Below are positions 10,595 through 39,434 of a stretch of DNA of 39,434 bases, in pieces. The number at the start of each line of letters is the position of its first letter. Position 1 is the stretch's first letter. The stretch comes from a virus, in the IMG/VR virus record IMGVR_UViG_3300033388_002017, positions 1-39,434 of that record. The stretch is one strand, 5' to 3'. The position numbers and the translations under genes were made by a program. The notes beneath the pieces are model-generated. The model made no database searches, was not told the DNA's origin, and was given only the letters and a program-made list of their open reading frames with translations.

Positions 10595-11164
10595 TTAATC
10601 AAGTCTCTCAGTTGGTGTTGGTCTGTATCTTGGGTAGTCTGTTCTTTCTGTGCATATGATTGCTATTGGATCACTTCCGTATTTGAATATTATTGGACTT
10701 ATTGATTTCTTACTGTTGGTGTCTACTCTCATATCGAATCTTTGGAGATTCCAAGAGTCTTTGAATAGTTCTAAAATGTCTTGTTTTATATAAGTGTAAT
10801 CGTTTAGGTGTTCTAGTACTCTGTAGTGAGTTGTTTTCTTTGCTTGGTACTTGTGATCAATATAAATGTGTTTTGTGTCTGTGAAGCTTGTGTAGTCTCT
10901 TGATAGTTCTAAATGTTTGAACCATGCTTGTGTCATTTTAACTCTTGATGCTTGTCTTAATTCTTGATAAATTCTATGTACACCTGTTTTTGTTATTCCT
11001 TTTTCTTTTAACGCTTTGTCAATGATGATATCTATTTTAAAAAATACATATCCATTTCCAATTATTCCAGTGGCAATATCAACCATCAATCCATTTTTAG
11101 ATTTTAGCTGCCTGTTGATCCAAGACTTAACTTTCGCTTTATCAAATATTATTTTACCTATCAT
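10595..11164 (-). CDS. Hypothetical 189-residue early protein
   Basis: The largest unassigned protein near the start of the early operon. It is basic, with an N-terminal helical part (KAKVKSWINRQLKSKNG), a middle resembling winged-helix spacing (ITKTGVHRIYQELRQASRVK) and a strand-rich C-terminus. Start at 11164 after GGAGGATTC, directly downstream of the parS palindrome. Possible DNA binding is inference only. Confidence 0.7.
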   Translation of the reverse strand: MIGKIIFDKAKVKSWINRQLKSKNGLMVDIATGIIGNGYVFFKIDIIIDKALKEKGITKTGVHRIYQELRQASRVKMTQAWFKHLELSRDYTSFTDTKHIYIDHKYQAKKTTHYRVLEHLNDYTYIKQDILELFKDSWNLQRFDMRVDTNSKKSISPIIFKYGSDPIAIICTERTDYPRYRPTPTERLD

Positions 11165-11194: not shown

Positions 11195-11419
11195 CTAGTC
11201 TTTAATTACAATCAACTTTAATAATTCTTCTTCACAAAATATTGGTCTTACCGTTATGTTATCTTTTAATATTGTTTTATAATCATCATCCAATTGAATA
11301 CATTTTGTGTATACTTGGTTTTCCGAGTCCCAACCTTTTAATCCGATTAGCTTTCCATTTATATCATATAGTTCTACGTTTGAATTAATGTACCATCTAC
11401 CTCTATAATTCTTTCTCAT
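11195..11419 (-). CDS. First gene of the early operon, hypothetical
   Basis: Seventy-four residues, MRKNYRGRWYINSNVELYDI, a beta-rich sequence (VELYDINGKLIGLKG) ending in a helix. Start at 11419 after GGAGGGCAAT, about 14 bases downstream of the predicted transcript start. As the first early product it could act on host functions immediately after infection, but no family is recognised. Confidence 0.7.
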   Translation of the reverse strand: MRKNYRGRWYINSNVELYDINGKLIGLKGWDSENQVYTKCIQLDDDYKTILKDNITVRPIFCEEELLKLIVIKD

Positions 11420-11439
11420 ATTGCCCTCCTGTTTACATT

Positions 11440-11468
11440 ACAATAACATACATCACATTACATGTCAA
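11440..11468 (-). promoter_or_regulatory. Early promoter, consensus -35
   Basis: Minus strand: TTGACA at 11468-11463, a 17-base spacer and TATTGT at 11445-11440. Direct repeats of the ACATTACA type (plus strand 11434-11441 and 11455-11462) cover the spacer and -10 region and could be operator half-sites. It drives the long leftward operon. Confidence 0.75.
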
Positions 11469-11471
11469 TTA

Positions 11472-11547
11472 AAAAAAAGAAAGGCATCTGGTCGAAGGAT
11501 GCTTTTCTTTTTCATCACTACACTATTAAAATAAAGAGGTATTAAAC
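11472..11547 (-). ncRNA. Predicted short transcript A
   Basis: Expected RNA of about 75 nt from the promoter at 11554-11582 to the hairpin at 11474-11512. It contains only a 15-codon frame. Predicted purely from promoter and terminator spacing. Confidence 0.35.
11474..11512. terminator. Hairpin terminator of short unit A
   Basis: A fifteen-pair stem: AAAAAGAAAGGCATC (11474-11488) with GATGCTTTTCTTTTT (11498-11512), one wobble on the plus strand or one mismatch on the minus strand, nine-base loop. Both strands have U runs; the minus side has eight Us. It stands just upstream of the early promoter and would isolate it from upstream transcription. Confidence 0.75.
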
Positions 11548-11550
11548 AAT

Positions 11551-11606
11551 TACATCTTATCATATTTATTCATGTTGGTAAAGCTTTGTTTTTTTGCATT
11601 TAAAAA
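11551..11606 (-). repeat. Promoter-terminator cassette repeat, copy 1
   Basis: Diverged direct repeat of 11843-11900. Shared blocks on the plus strand are TACATCTTATCAT, GTTGGTAAA and TTTGCATT followed by a run of A that opens a terminator stem. The two copies are 292 bp apart, pointing to duplication of a terminator-plus-promoter cassette. Confidence 0.7.
11554..11582 (-). promoter_or_regulatory. Promoter A with extended -10
   Basis: Minus strand TTTACC (11582-11577), 17-base spacer, TAAGAT (11559-11554) preceded by TGA, an extended -10. The shared 11-mer GATAAGATGTA covers the -10. Confidence 0.55.
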
Positions 11607-11632
11607 GAGCCTATAGACTGTAGACTCTTTTT
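11602..11632 (-). terminator. Hairpin terminator of short unit C
   Basis: On the minus strand AAAAAGAGTCTA pairs fully with TAGGCTCTTTTT (one wobble) around a seven-base loop, ending in five Us. The pairing is perfect only on the minus strand. The stem sequence resembles the terminator at 36254-36278. Confidence 0.75.
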
Positions 11633-11670
11633 AAATGTTGACGTTGAAAAATTTACCTAATTAATTTGAT
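11602..11670 (-). ncRNA. Predicted short transcript C
   Basis: About 70 nt from the strongest promoter of the block (11677-11705, perfect TATAAT) to the hairpin at 11602-11632. No reading frame of note. Confidence 0.4.
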
Positions 11671-11676
11671 AACTTT

Positions 11677-11705
11677 ATTATAGCACACTTGTATTCTTTG
11701 ATAAA
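11677..11705 (-). promoter_or_regulatory. Promoter C, perfect extended -10
   Basis: Minus strand TTTATC (11705-11700), 17-base spacer ending in TGC, then TATAAT (11682-11677). The extended -10 is perfect. No gene starts before the terminator about 70 bases downstream. Confidence 0.7.
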
Positions 11706-11723
11706 GCTTTTACTTTCTTTCTA

Positions 11724-11839
11724 ATAAAAAAAGACCGCCATTCCGCAGCCTTTCTTTTATAGCACTGTATAACAGCGTGTGGTATTTACGTAAACCTTTA
11801 AAATCAACTTTACCTAGGAATTGATTACTACCACTGAAT
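11724..11839 (-). ncRNA. Predicted short transcript B
   Basis: About 115 nt from promoter B to the hairpin at 11730-11753. Internal self-complementary segments include AATCAA/TTGATT, GGTTTACGTAAATACC and CTGTTATACAG, so a folded RNA is plausible. A further possible promoter (TTTACG-17-TATACA) lies inside it. No coding frame of note. Confidence 0.4.
11730..11753 (-). terminator. Hairpin terminator of short unit B
   Basis: Minus-strand RNA AAAGGCTGC pairs with GCGGTCTTT, nine pairs including two G-U, six-base loop, followed by a run of Us. On the plus strand the same positions are mismatched, so it acts leftward. Confidence 0.75.
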
Positions 11840-11842
11840 ATA

Positions 11843-11900
11843 TACATCTTATCATACTTGTTCGCGTTGGTAAACATTTGATTTTATTTGCATTAAAAAA
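11843..11900 (-). repeat. Promoter-terminator cassette repeat, copy 2
   Basis: Diverged copy of 11551-11606, carrying the same GATAAGATGTA element and GGTAAA block, here fused to the late-operon terminator stem. Confidence 0.7.
11846..11874 (-). promoter_or_regulatory. Promoter B with extended -10
   Basis: Minus strand TTTACC (11874-11869), 17-base spacer, TAAGAT (11851-11846) with TGA before it. Same arrangement as promoter A. Confidence 0.55.
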
Positions 11901-11924
11901 TCCTTATCTTCTGACAAGGATTTT
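11897..11924 (-). terminator. Terminator of the late operon
   Basis: AAAATCCTT (11897-11905) pairs perfectly with AAGGATTTT (11916-11924) around a ten-base loop; on the minus strand it runs into six Us. It follows the last late gene and precedes the non-coding block. Confidence 0.8.
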
Positions 11925-11981
11925 GATTATATTATTTTCGATCCCATTTCGATCGCATTGGTTTATCGAGTGTTCCTGATG

Positions 11982-12128
11982 CTAAACGAATCCTGATGAA
12001 TACATTGCATTTGAATGTCGCTTATCAGATTTCTGTAATCCGTATATACAAGGAATCTTTATATTACATTCTAACTCGATCATAGAAACATATAATACAG
12101 AAAGTAAAAAGCTAATCATTAAAATCAC
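11982..12128 (-). CDS. Small membrane protein, GTG start
   Basis: Forty-eight codons starting GTG 12128, ten bases after AGGAG. The first 20 residues (ILMISFLLSVLYVSM) are hydrophobic, followed by a short region with two Cys and a polar tail. It is the last gene before the late terminator and directly follows the holin-like gene, so a lysis-related role (antiholin or spanin-like) is possible. An ATG overlapping the ribosome site gives only seven codons. Confidence 0.5.
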   Translation of the reverse strand: MILMISFLLSVLYVSMIELECNIKIPCIYGLQKSDKRHSNAMYSSGFV

Positions 12129-12174: not shown

Positions 12175-12609
12175 TTATGATTTGTCTATAAATTTAATAT
12201 CTGGAACTTTAGCCACTGGATCACTTCTATAAATTAATAATTCTTCATTTAACCGTTTTTTTAATTTTCTCATATTAATTAATGTATCTACAGATTTAGT
12301 TGCAATCTGTATCAATCCGTATGGTCCTTGCGATAATATCATTGAGCAAGCTAAAATATCCACGAATAAGAATAACTTGCCTAACTCCAATGTAATACCC
12401 ATTAATAACATAAAAGATGTTACAATCCCAATACGAGCAGTAAAACCATATAGTAACCCAAAGACTACAGCTAAAGGAACTCCGAACTTTCCTTGTTTCC
12501 ATTCTTCATTTACAAAGTACTTGAATAATTTCTTAAATCCTATCACTACTGTCAATAGTACTACCGATATGACAATTAAGGTTAATAAAGGTATTAAATT
12601 TTCTTTCAT
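12175..12609 (-). CDS. Holin-like membrane protein
   Basis: A 144-residue protein with a positively charged, amphipathic C-terminus and three to four hydrophobic helices: residues 5-25 (LIPLLTLIVISVVLLTVVIG), about 45-75 (VPLAVVFGLLYGF and the next segment) and 78-105. The size, topology and position at the end of the lysis and accessory region suit a phage holin that opens the membrane for the amidase. Start at 12609 after AGGAGGAAACC. Family assignment is by layout only. Confidence 0.65.
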   Translation of the reverse strand: MKENLIPLLTLIVISVVLLTVVIGFKKLFKYFVNEEWKQGKFGVPLAVVFGLLYGFTARIGIVTSFMLLMGITLELGKLFLFVDILACSMILSQGPYGLIQIATKSVDTLINMRKLKKRLNEELLIYRSDPVAKVPDIKFIDKS

Positions 12610-12618
12610 GGTTTCCTC

Positions 12619-13077
12619 CTAGTCTACAACTTGCCAATCTTCAGCCAAACAATCACTTGTAGAAGGTGACCACATAGCTATATCATTTTGTGCTGTTTTT
12701 AATGCTAAGTATGGTCTGTATGGAACATTCTCACCAAACTCTCGTCTTGCTATTTCTGTATTTGCTGGATATGTATTACCTTCTACATAATAGAAATACA
12801 TTCCAGAACCATTCCATCCAACTCTTTGTAATTTCTTACCTTGCTTTGATAATAGGACAGCATGACCATAAGTGTAATTACCATTAGTTCTGTATGCAGC
12901 TTCAAAAGTTTCTTTCGGTGACCAGCTTATATATCCATCAGGATATTCTACTTTGTAACCTTCTTCAGAATCATCTATATGATTTTCTGTAAAATCTCTG
13001 CCTGTCTTAAAGTTTTCAAATGCTTCTTTTCTCATTGACTCTGCTTTGATTTGTTTCGTTCCTATATAATTATTCAT
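12619..13077 (-). CDS. tad2: Tad2-like (DUF2829) anti-Thoeris candidate
   Basis: A 152-residue, two-part protein. Residues 75-152 match the DUF2829/Tad2 layout: LLSKQGKKLQRVGWNGSG, a YYVEG strand, R-P-Y-L-A-L-K-T-A, M-W-S-P-S and the closing D-C-L-A-E-D-W-Q-V-V. Tad2 proteins of phages sequester the cyclic ADP-ribose-type signal made by the Thoeris ThsB protein and so block ThsA. Residues 1-62 form a separate domain ending Y-P-D-G-Y-I-S-W-S-P-K-E-T-F-E-A-A-Y, also found fused to DUF2829 in other phages. The gene is expressed with late genes (GGAGGTCTAA before ATG), which is late for a counter-defence protein. Signal binding is not shown here. Confidence 0.8.
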   Translation of the reverse strand: MNNYIGTKQIKAESMRKEAFENFKTGRDFTENHIDDSEEGYKVEYPDGYISWSPKETFEAAYRTNGNYTYGHAVLLSKQGKKLQRVGWNGSGMYFYYVEGNTYPANTEIARREFGENVPYRPYLALKTAQNDIAMWSPSTSDCLAEDWQVVD

Positions 13078-13395
13078 TTAGACCTCCGAGTCTTTTGATG
13101 AGTCTTCTGGTTGAAATACTTTTTCGTAAGTCATTTCAAAGATATCAGGCTTACAAGGATAAAATTCACCTTTTACACCTTTGATGATATAATCACCAGC
13201 ATTAGCAAGATGATCACCTTCTAGTGTTTTAATGATTAATCCTATTTCCATACCATCATCATTAACTTTGCCATTTTCATCAACATTTACTTCACCACCA
13301 TAAGAACCATCATTTATAAAATCTCTAACTTCTTTTCGAGTGTCCCATCTAAATTGCATCGCTTCAATAACTACAGGTTTCTTTCTATATTTCAT
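13078..13395 (-). CDS. Conserved phage protein (YIIKGVKGEFYPC type)
   Basis: A 105-residue protein of a widespread unnamed phage family: MKYRKKPVVIEAMQF at the start and G-D-Y-I-I-K-G-V-K-G-E-F-Y-P-C-K-P-D-I-F at residues 72-91. An acidic, Gly/Asn-rich middle is variable in such proteins. It lies directly upstream of the Tad2-like gene with the start overlapping (GGAGGTCTAAAATG pattern on both), so the two are a translational pair. Function unknown; accessory or counter-defence is inference from position. Confidence 0.75.
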   Translation of the reverse strand: MKYRKKPVVIEAMQFRWDTRKEVRDFINDGSYGGEVNVDENGKVNDDGMEIGLIIKTLEGDHLANAGDYIIKGVKGEFYPCKPDIFEMTYEKVFQPEDSSKDSEV

Positions 13396-35577: not shown

Positions 35578-35757
35578 ATGAAGAAAAACATTTGGGGTAC
35601 AGAATATTCATTGACTAATGGACTTGTAAATTATATAAATGACAAAACATCAGGTTTCTTTAAAGGTTTTGATGGGATCGAAGGTAGTGTTTGTGGATTT
35701 GAAGACGTATGTTGGGCGCATTACTCGCAAGTACTAGTTAAAAATAACTTAGCTTAA
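35578..35757 (+). CDS. Hypothetical 59-residue protein, plus-strand operon
   Basis: ATG 35578 after AAGGAGAATATC. MKKNIWGTEYSLTNGLVNYI continues with a Gly/Phe-rich middle, two Cys in G-S-V-C-G-F-E-D-V-C-W and an amphipathic end. It is the first gene of the only plus-strand operon. No family recognised. Confidence 0.7.
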   Translation: MKKNIWGTEYSLTNGLVNYINDKTSGFFKGFDGIEGSVCGFEDVCWAHYSQVLVKNNLA

Positions 35758-35800
35758 TCACTTGGGGATTTATTCCCCTTCCAAACTAAAGGAGATCAAT

Positions 35801-36124
35801 ATGACTTATAACGAAAGAATGATAAGAGAACACATTTCAACTTACAAGAAAATGTATTTCGATAAATTTGGTCAGATGCCTAAATCTTGGTTTACGTTTT
35901 TCAGATGGTTAGCAGATTGTACACAAGCACAAAGTTTTAATTCTAACGAATCAGCCTTAGCCATTAAATTGTTTGAGGACAAAACAGATAAGATTTTAAT
36001 TACAGCAGGATTTGACATTAGCCAAATGTCCGAAGATGAAAAAGAATATTCAATCGATATGATCAACTCGCTCGGTGGTTTAGAGCAAGCAACTAAAACA
36101 GCTATTAAGTTCTTGGAGGTATAA
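35801..36124 (+). CDS. Hypothetical 107-residue protein, plus-strand operon
   Basis: Start set at ATG 35801 (MTYNERMIREHISTYKKMYF), behind AAAGGAGATCAAT; the frame is open upstream to 35762 but without a site. The protein is helical, with F-G-Q-M-P-K-S-W-F-T-F-F-R-W and acidic C-terminal helices. It is immediately followed by the next gene (TAAATG). Unknown. Confidence 0.75.
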   Translation: MTYNERMIREHISTYKKMYFDKFGQMPKSWFTFFRWLADCTQAQSFNSNESALAIKLFEDKTDKILITAGFDISQMSEDEKEYSIDMINSLGGLEQATKTAIKFLEV

Positions 36125-36271
36125 ATGGATAATACACTTAAAGTCAGAGTCAACGAAGAATTGCTTAATTTTTACAAAGGTAATCCCGACTTAATGAAAG
36201 AAGCTCTCACCATGTTTAAGAGATCCAAAGAAAAGTTTATAGCAATATATGAAAAAGAGTCTAATCAATAG
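36125..36271 (+). CDS. Small ribbon-helix-helix-like protein
   Basis: Forty-eight residues: MDNTLKVRVNEELLNFYKGN, then D-L-M-K-E-A-L-T-M-F-K-R-S-K-E. A strand L-K-V-R-V followed by two helices is the Arc/MetJ/CopG pattern, so it may be a dimeric DNA-binding repressor, plausibly of the palindromes upstream. The stop lies inside the terminator stem. Assignment rests on pattern only. Confidence 0.6.
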   Translation: MDNTLKVRVNEELLNFYKGNPDLMKEALTMFKRSKEKFIAIYEKESNQ

Positions 36272-37482: not shown

Positions 37483-38363
37483 CATTCTAATACTACATCA
37501 CCTTCTTTTTGTGTAGTATCTAACCACTCTTGTTTACCTTTTTCATTTATAACTAGTCTCAGTGGATAACCTAGATCATCATATTGAATTACATTGGATC
37601 TTGTTTTTATTTCTTTTTTAATTAAAAAGTCTTTGAAGTTTTTCTTTTCATCCCAGCCTTCAACTATTTTCTTGTTTATATAATCTATTATTAGAAATAG
37701 AGCGCCATATCCCAGAGCGAAGATTATACTTATTAGTCCTAACTTAACATCTGCTAAACCTTTGTGTCTTAAATACATTATGCATAGTTGCAAGATTATT
37801 AAGAACTCTGCTGCTGAAAGTAATAATACGTGTTTTTTTATTAGTGGTTTCATTGGTATACTCTCCCTTATAGAATTCAAAGATTTGCATTTTGTGCAAA
37901 ACAAGTCTTTCGTTTGTACATGCATACCATCTTCAATTACATAAGAATCATCATAATCCGACATTTTCATAAAAAACTCACATCCGCACTTGTCACAATC
38001 TAATCCAATTTCTTGAAACATCATTTTCGTTGCTTCATAATCATCTCGTTTTGCAATATAGTTTATTTCTATATTTCTTTTTATACATCTTTCATATGTA
38101 TCACCTTGTAACATTAAGTGACCTTGTTTAATGTGCATATCTTTTAGTACGTCTTGATTAACTTCAGAAGAATTATATTTGACTTCCCAACCATCTTTAA
38201 ACCAATCCGATTTAGTCATGTTATCCATGTGATTAGTTAGGTCAGCGCCATCCTCATAATATAATGTATTTTTATACATGTGCATACTCTGATTTTTACA
38301 GAAATACTCATGAGTAACAAAATTACCTTGTTTACATGATTCTATTGCTTCTTGTAATTTCAT
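37455..38363 (-). CDS. Membrane protein with zinc ribbon
   Basis: A 302-residue, three-part protein. Residues 1-62 (LQEAIESCKQGNFVTHEYFC to DGWEVKY) have the spacing of small phage domains related to DUF2829. Residues 120-160 contain C-D-K-C-G-C and C-T-K-C, a zinc ribbon. Residues about 172-232 hold two transmembrane helices, followed by a basic cytoplasmic tail. An internal ATG at residue 171 is where the left-edge copy starts as an independent gene. Function unknown. Start at 38363 after AAGGATAAAAG. Confidence 0.7.
   Translation of the reverse strand: MKLQEAIESCKQGNFVTHEYFCKNQSMHMYKNTLYYEDGADLTNHMDNMTKSDWFKDGWEVKYNSSEVNQDVLKDMHIKQGHLMLQGDTYERCIKRNIEINYIAKRDDYEATKMMFQEIGLDCDKCGCEFFMKMSDYDDSYVIEDGMHVQTKDLFCTKCKSLNSIRESIPMKPLIKKHVLLLSAAEFLIILQLCIMYLRHKGLADVKLGLISIIFALGYGALFLIIDYINKKIVEGWDEKKNFKDFLIKKEIKTRSNVIQYDDLGYPLRLVINEKGKQEWLDTTQKEGDVVLEWKDRGRANQ
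37760..37873. repeat. 114-bp direct repeat of window start
   Basis: Identical at all 114 bases to 1-114, then diverging at 37874/115. It lies in the membrane part of the 302-residue gene. The left copy is cut by the window edge, so the true match may be longer. Confidence 0.95.
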
Positions 38364-38720: not shown

Positions 38721-39434
38721 TAGATCCTTCTTCCTCTAGTTGTTGTTGATGAAAATATATTAAGTCACCTTCATCGAAAGATAATTCAACAATGTAAATA
38801 CTATCAATCAGCAACTTCCAACGTTCACTTTGATTTATTTCTATAAATGCTTTTCCTGTTTTTACAACGTGTTCAAGGCATCAATCACAATACCATCTTT
38901 TATTTGAAAACGTACAACCTTCAACATCATCATCACACAACGTGCATGTGTGTTTTATTTTTAAATTACTTTCATTACCTTTTTTTAGTTGTTCATTAGT
39001 AATACCATGATATAATAATTCTCTCTTTAATAACTCTTTTAACATATTGTTACCACCGTTTGACATTATTTCTTTTATCGTCCAGCCAATCAAAGCGTCT
39101 TTTCTAAGTTCTCTAGTTTCCCAACCTAAATTAGCTACCGTTGTAACAAGTTTGCTATATTCATTATTCAATCTAACATTTTCTTTCTGTAACTCATTAA
39201 TCTTTGCTTGATAACTACCTATTGTTACTGATGCACCATAGTCTAAAGATTTTTCATATGCTTCAACCCTAGCCTTAAGAGCATCACGTTCTTTAGCTGT
39301 TTTTCGTATCCTTTTAGTTAAGTCTAATACATTCCTGTTTTCTTGTTTTAAAGATTTTTTTAATGCATCAATTTCTAAAGGCATCATGTTCAATTCATGA
39401 CGTTCAATTATTTCTTTCATAACATCACGCTCAT
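38710..39434 (-). CDS. Coiled-coil protein with zinc-ribbon tail and in-frame UGA, partial
   Basis: Right-edge copy of the 1590-2159 protein, with its N-terminus outside the window. After the shared part, a tail reads H-T-C-T-L-C, then W-Y-C-D, then TGA (38881-38883). The same frame continues with C-L-E-H-V and 55 more codons to TAA at 38710, overlapping the next start. The UGA falls inside the second Cys pair (C-D-UGA-C), so the zinc ribbon is complete only with readthrough. No start codon with a site follows the UGA. A recent nonsense mutation is the alternative. Confidence 0.6.
39001..39434. repeat. 434-bp direct repeat, right copy
   Basis: Matches 1623-2056 base for base without gaps and with about nine differences, ending at the window edge. 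Most differences are silent or conservative in the shared protein. Confidence 0.95.

Follow-up and report, generated by a model that had tools for sequence, protein, structure and literature searches.

Promoter, short RNA and terminator in close succession form the anatomy of lambda 6S RNA at pR' and of the HK022 put leaders, whereas phage morons are protein-coding autonomous units that lie between phage operons with their own promoter and terminator. To our knowledge, little is known about the functions of small RNAs (sRNAs) in Gram-positive phages. RCd22, the AbiF antitoxin RNA of the C. difficile prophage phi027 (Rfam RF03085), has a length of about 100-130 nt and was established experimentally near the lysis module (PMC12373285). 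AgvB and AsxR, anti-sRNAs of EHEC lambdoid prophages, are 51-60 nt long with a conserved 3' region, occur as convergent pairs, bind Hfq and have been shown experimentally (PMC4104026). Kayvirus lncRNA1 and lncRNA2 are non-coding RNAs of 525-570 nt and unknown function beside tRNA genes, and lncRNA2 starts from a host-type early promoter (PMC7698491).

Here, we describe a block in a phage genome that appears, with about even confidence on our part, to consist of three tandem stand-alone sRNA genes, with host sigma-A-type promoters and intrinsic terminators, at the junction of the late and early operons. Like RCd22, the predicted RNAs are phage-encoded, have a SigA promoter and a Rho-independent terminator and adjoin the lysis module; RCd22 however is single, whereas the block holds three tandem units with unrelated RNAs. 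With AgvB and AsxR they share their short length and an intergenic, moron-type position, but they have no body sequence in common and are predictions from the DNA sequence. That known sRNAs of like anatomy occur near phage lysis modules and at moron sites favours interpreting the units as sRNA genes. The Kayvirus RNAs are likewise phage non-coding transcripts, but the predicted RNAs here measure 76-114 nt and no tRNA was found in the window. In contrast to lambda 6S and the HK022 put leaders, three independent units follow each other in series and a strong promoter of its own serves the downstream operon; compared with morons, the autonomous placement between operons is alike, but the units contain no protein-coding gene.

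The window, by which we mean the whole stretch of DNA analysed, comprises a single IMG/VR virus record (39,434 bases, 32% GC) with almost all genes on the minus strand. Its ends overlap, positions 37760-37873 being identical to 1-114 and 38979-39434 being 97% identical to 1601-2056 at an offset of about 380 nt, which looks like a circularly permuted genome with a true length nearer 37.4-37.8 kb and a strain variant or indel. One structural protein shares 28% identity with its counterpart in Pagevirus (Bacillus megaterium podophages), terminase relatives at 56-65% identity are present in IMG/VR and more distant ones are located in Clostridia genome bins. The closest relative found (L087/G021) is an 8.9-kb fragment with 80% identity in one structural protein. 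On the minus strand the order runs from terminase (34704) through portal and structural genes to lysis (amidase 14756-14031) and holin-like and Tad2-like genes (to 12175), then the block, then early genes from 11419 downwards; the labels "late" and "early" are inferred from this gene order. Apparently the sole plus-strand genes form a small operon of three unannotated proteins (35578-36271), divergent from the terminase operon. The Tad2-like (Thoeris anti-defence 2-like) domain at 12619-13077 on the minus strand, adjoining the lysis module, scores 77 bits in Pfam. A brief look at an origin-of-replication reading revealed no GC-skew switch at the block.

The block sits in a 755-nt gap (12174-11420) between the lysis module and the early gene 11195-11419, and on the minus strand the gap reads T0-P1-RNA1-T1-P2-RNA2-T2-P3-RNA3-T3-P4-early gene, with the following features:

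11897-11924, minus strand: T0, intrinsic terminator of the late operon, 12-bp stem, -12.7 kcal/mol, with U-tract
11843-11900, minus strand: copy 1 of a duplicated terminator-promoter cassette, at the T0-P1 junction, beginning in the 3' arm of T0
11846-11874, minus strand: promoter P1, TTTACC(11874)-17-TAAGAT(11851), score 8.5, rank 25/4199
11727-11840, minus strand: predicted RNA1 of about 114 nt, closed by T1, body fold z -1.7
about 11757-11727, minus strand: T1, strong strand-specific hairpin with U-tract, -15.7 kcal/mol
11677-11705, minus strand: promoter P2, TTTATC(11705)-17-TATAAT(11682), score 9.6, rank 12/4199
11597-11672, minus strand: predicted RNA2 of about 76 nt, closed by T2
11637-11597, minus strand: T2, hairpin with 17-bp stem, -18.0 kcal/mol
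11551-11606, minus strand: copy 2 of the duplicated cassette, at the T2-P3 junction, 82.8% identical to copy 1 over 58 nt
11554-11582, minus strand: promoter P3, TTTACC(11582)-17-TAAGAT(11559), duplicate of P1, score 8.5, rank 24/4199
11473-11548, minus strand: predicted RNA3 of about 76 nt, closed by T3, with ACCUCUUUAU in its 5' tail
11512-11474, minus strand: T3, -11.8 kcal/mol, transcript end at about 11473
11440-11468, minus strand: early promoter P4, TTGACA(11468)-17-TATTGT(11445), rank 1 of the minus strand

Could such an arrangement arise by chance? Over 400 dinucleotide-shuffled versions of the gap, scored with our own simple models at a promoter cut-off score of at least 8, the mean was 0.66 promoters (4 observed; as many in 3/400), 0.04 terminators (3 observed; reached in 0/400) and 0.002 complete units of promoter and terminator (2 observed; reached in 0/400). 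The three tandem promoter-short RNA-terminator units that a sequence-only reading had placed here on the minus strand are indeed found, and their density, exceeding that of the shuffles, favours the interpretation as sRNA genes. This interpretation is also favoured by the concentration, within about 430 nt, of 4 of the 25 top-scoring minus-strand promoters of the 39 kb, as ranked by a sigma-A weight matrix over 4199 candidate minus-strand sites. It is weakened by the mediocre quality of P1 and P3, each matching the consensus at 4/6 positions per hexamer, and as duplicates these two are not independent in the statistics. A generic consensus scan of the wider region gave no promoter excess (18 vs 14.6). 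TG precedes the -10 element in P1, P2 and P3, and P2 has an equally good alternative reading, TTATCA-16. A further junction of terminator and promoter, at 6395-6319 on the minus strand, shares GATAAGATGTA with P1 and P3 and precedes the gene for an HTH_17 regulator.

The duplicated cassette that the sequence-only reading had noticed in two units is real: the junctions T0-P1 and T2-P3 are diverged copies with 83% identity over 58 nt. Each copy consists of a terminator 3' arm, an A-rich spacer and a promoter and ends near the predicted transcription start; the RNAs downstream of the two copies are unrelated, so that the duplication is confined to the terminator-promoter junction.

The claim that the hairpins fix the direction of the units stands for some of them. 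Folding energies on the minus and plus strand are -12.7 and -9.0 kcal/mol for T0, -15.7 and -2.2 for T1, -18.0 and -15.9 for T2, and -11.8 and -18.1 for T3. The direction is clear for T0 and T1, where wobble pairs favour the minus strand and with it the sRNA interpretation, the preference is slight for T2, and the claim fails for T3, whose better pairing on the plus strand weakens that interpretation. T2 has no U-tract after the full stem and was not called by a strict terminator scan because the U run falls within the stem. On the plus strand, a promoter-like TTGAAT-18-TATAAT lies at 11404 with T3 95 nt further on (11404-11510), so that T3 might terminate transcripts arriving from the opposite side as well; a transcript of this stretch could run antisense to the early promoter and its leader. 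T0-T3 would also insulate late from early transcription.

None of the three predicted transcripts contains an open reading frame of useful length led by a Shine-Dalgarno (SD) sequence, in agreement with the earlier description of the units as gene-free and favouring sRNA genes. However, P1, RNA1 and T1 are spanned by an open frame of 57 codons, or 55 when counted from its ATG (11877-11710), and differences between the cassette copies are partly synonymous, as would suit a real small gene in which P1 and T1 are coincidental parts. We consider this very unlikely: the frame lacks a Shine-Dalgarno sequence, whereas most genes of the window have one, by codon score it ranks with the lowest 3% of real gene segments, it has no homologue, and T1 is a strong strand-specific hairpin with a U-tract. 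We therefore treat the units as presumably non-coding and leave the 55-codon frame a slight chance. Outside the units, between the holin-like gene and T0, a 48-codon frame (11982-12128, minus strand) has a good Shine-Dalgarno sequence, a hydrophobic N-terminus and a poor codon score. The units thus have the usual marks of sRNA genes at the level of sequence, namely an own promoter and intrinsic terminator around about 50-200 nt (with the caveat of the T2 U-tract) and no protein-coding gene in the transcript, given the absence of an SD-led frame and the poor score of the 55-codon frame.

How might such RNAs act? Host RNA polymerase would make the predicted RNAs of about 114, 76 and 76 nt, which would be released at T1-T3 and act in trans. 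RNA2 and RNA3 have short, AU-rich bodies without structure, and RNA1 shows only mild structure (z -1.7, not significant), with two stem-loops one base apart. This lack of significant structure weakens the sRNA interpretation; it is more in keeping with pairing of the antisense type than with a folded ribo-element, but is compatible with meaningless transcripts, too. RNA2 and RNA3 would most likely act through their unstructured 5' tails, by base-pairing with mRNAs of the phage or the host, and RNA3 would pair with Shine-Dalgarno regions through CCUCUUU, its ACCUCUUUAU being complementary to such regions. Its best phage partner is the start of 5053-4637 (-24.9), a duplex equalled by 18/600 shuffles and 35/900 genome windows before correction for the three RNAs that were tested against phage targets. 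The second partner, the start of the plus-strand gene at 35578 (-23.3), offers 12 contiguous complementary bases beside the SD sequence; for the second-best duplex the counts are 2/600 shuffles and 17/900 genome windows. A first, smaller test of RNA3 had given 0/60 shuffles, and the larger run weakened the signal to 18/600; phage target prediction gave no signal for RNA1 or RNA2. The complementarity of RNA3 is only modestly unusual, a lead rather than evidence of function, and together with the lack of signal for RNA1 and RNA2 it weakens the sRNA interpretation.

These properties also fit a serious rival, if a somewhat improbable one, in which the units are promoter-terminator shells left by lost small early or moron genes, at most insulating and with functionless transcripts. 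The short, AU-rich, unstructured RNA2 and RNA3, a duplication that covers the terminator-promoter junction and not the RNA, and the overlap of RNA1 with an open frame that is possibly a gene remnant all speak for such shells. However, promoters and terminators are intact in all three units, and a gene-free unit recurs at the same junction in two relatives.

These relatives, G003 and G005 (terminase identity 61% and 60%), carry a single gene-free unit right after the last gene of the lysis module, which favours sRNA genes. Their promoters are strong (rank 1 and rank 5 of the plus strand, respectively), followed by 75-84 nt without an SD-led ORF and then a strong terminator; 0/400 shuffles matched these units, a descriptive figure because the sites were picked after inspection and not predicted beforehand. 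In G003, the genes beyond the unit run on the opposite strand and share its bidirectional terminator. The sRNA interpretation is weakened by the lack of detectable sequence similarity between these units and those of the window, and by the absence of a scored unit at the junction in G004, which has a terminator only, and in the Pagevirus scored; in Pageviruses the junction holds a terminator, the gene of a small membrane protein and one more gap. A gene-free unit is thus present at the junction in 2 of 3 close relatives. Scan-found units in the distant phages G006, G011, G013-G015 and G019, whose junction position is not established, were left out of the evidence. Two markers were tried and rejected: the 58-aa membrane protein encoded ahead of the G005 unit occurs in six other phages with no unit after it, and gene 13078-13395 brought in 80 phages, mostly unrelated. 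Elsewhere in G004 (IMGVR_UViG_3300020045_003524), at about 28460-28370 on the minus strand, a gene-free stretch follows a strong promoter-like sequence and has possible paired segments, CCGTAAGG...CCCTTACG, without an Rfam match at gathering thresholds.

The sequence-only reading had left two options, an array of small RNAs or an attenuation or antitermination region ahead of the early genes. In the latter, transcription from P1-P3 would end in short leaders at T1-T3, and a factor from phage or host would be needed for read-through into the early genes, comparable to lambda pR'-6S-tR' or HK022 put. A promoter, short leader and terminator ahead of a same-strand operon (early gene 11195-11419) would fit this model, as would the two adjacent stem-loops of RNA1. 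We nonetheless regard it as unlikely because P4, the best-scoring promoter, serves the early operon from directly after T3 and is followed by AGGAGG and the gene, and because the G003 unit precedes opposite-strand genes, which disfavours a leader or attenuator role there for the immediately downstream genes; in addition, the RNA1 body fold is not significant. The array of small RNAs, gene-free, non-random and recurring in two relatives, is the better supported option.

RCd22 of C. difficile phages agrees with the predicted RNAs in size, in having a SigA promoter and a terminator, and in its place at the lysis module. This raises the idea that one or more of them are RNA antitoxins whose toxin is encoded by a nearby early gene, in a toxin-antitoxin system of type III-like or AbiF-like kind. 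Such a role is highly improbable: no Abi_2 (PF07751) protein is encoded in the window, G003 or G005, the abiF RNA motif (RF03085) is not among the matches to the block up to E 10, and the first five early proteins have no toxin family in Pfam or PADLOC beyond a weak TIR-like match. The latter concerns the early protein 10595-11164 (ThsB/TIR-like, E 0.0017).

Searches with the block DNA gave no match by blastn in phage records or plasmids, by degenerate pattern scan in IMG/VR, at a meaningful E-value inside 20 relative records, or in Rfam at gathering or permissive thresholds, and protein searches of IMG/VR with the flanking genes 10595-11164 and 12175-12609 gave no relatives. We tentatively propose, as a rather doubtful extension, that the block belongs to a class of stand-alone sRNA loci, syntenic but divergent in sequence, at the late/early junction in a clade of Firmicutes podophages distantly related to Pagevirus, expanded to three here by cassette duplication and evolving fast from targeting particular hosts or rival phages.

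In conclusion, promoter and terminator anatomy, putative non-coding character, non-randomness, cassette duplication and the single units in two relatives can all be read from the DNA, and the block is probably to be filed with a known kind, phage-encoded intergenic sRNA genes. The tandem array of three with a duplicated promoter cassette is unusual, and the tandem layout together with the recurrent position is mildly new. Functionally, the units would be "RNA morons", autonomous transcription units inserted between operons. If the three RNAs are made, they would represent an RNA-only counterpart of the protein-coding moron, and looking behind the lysis module would be an easy way to detect further genes of this kind in phages whose RNA sequences have nothing in common.
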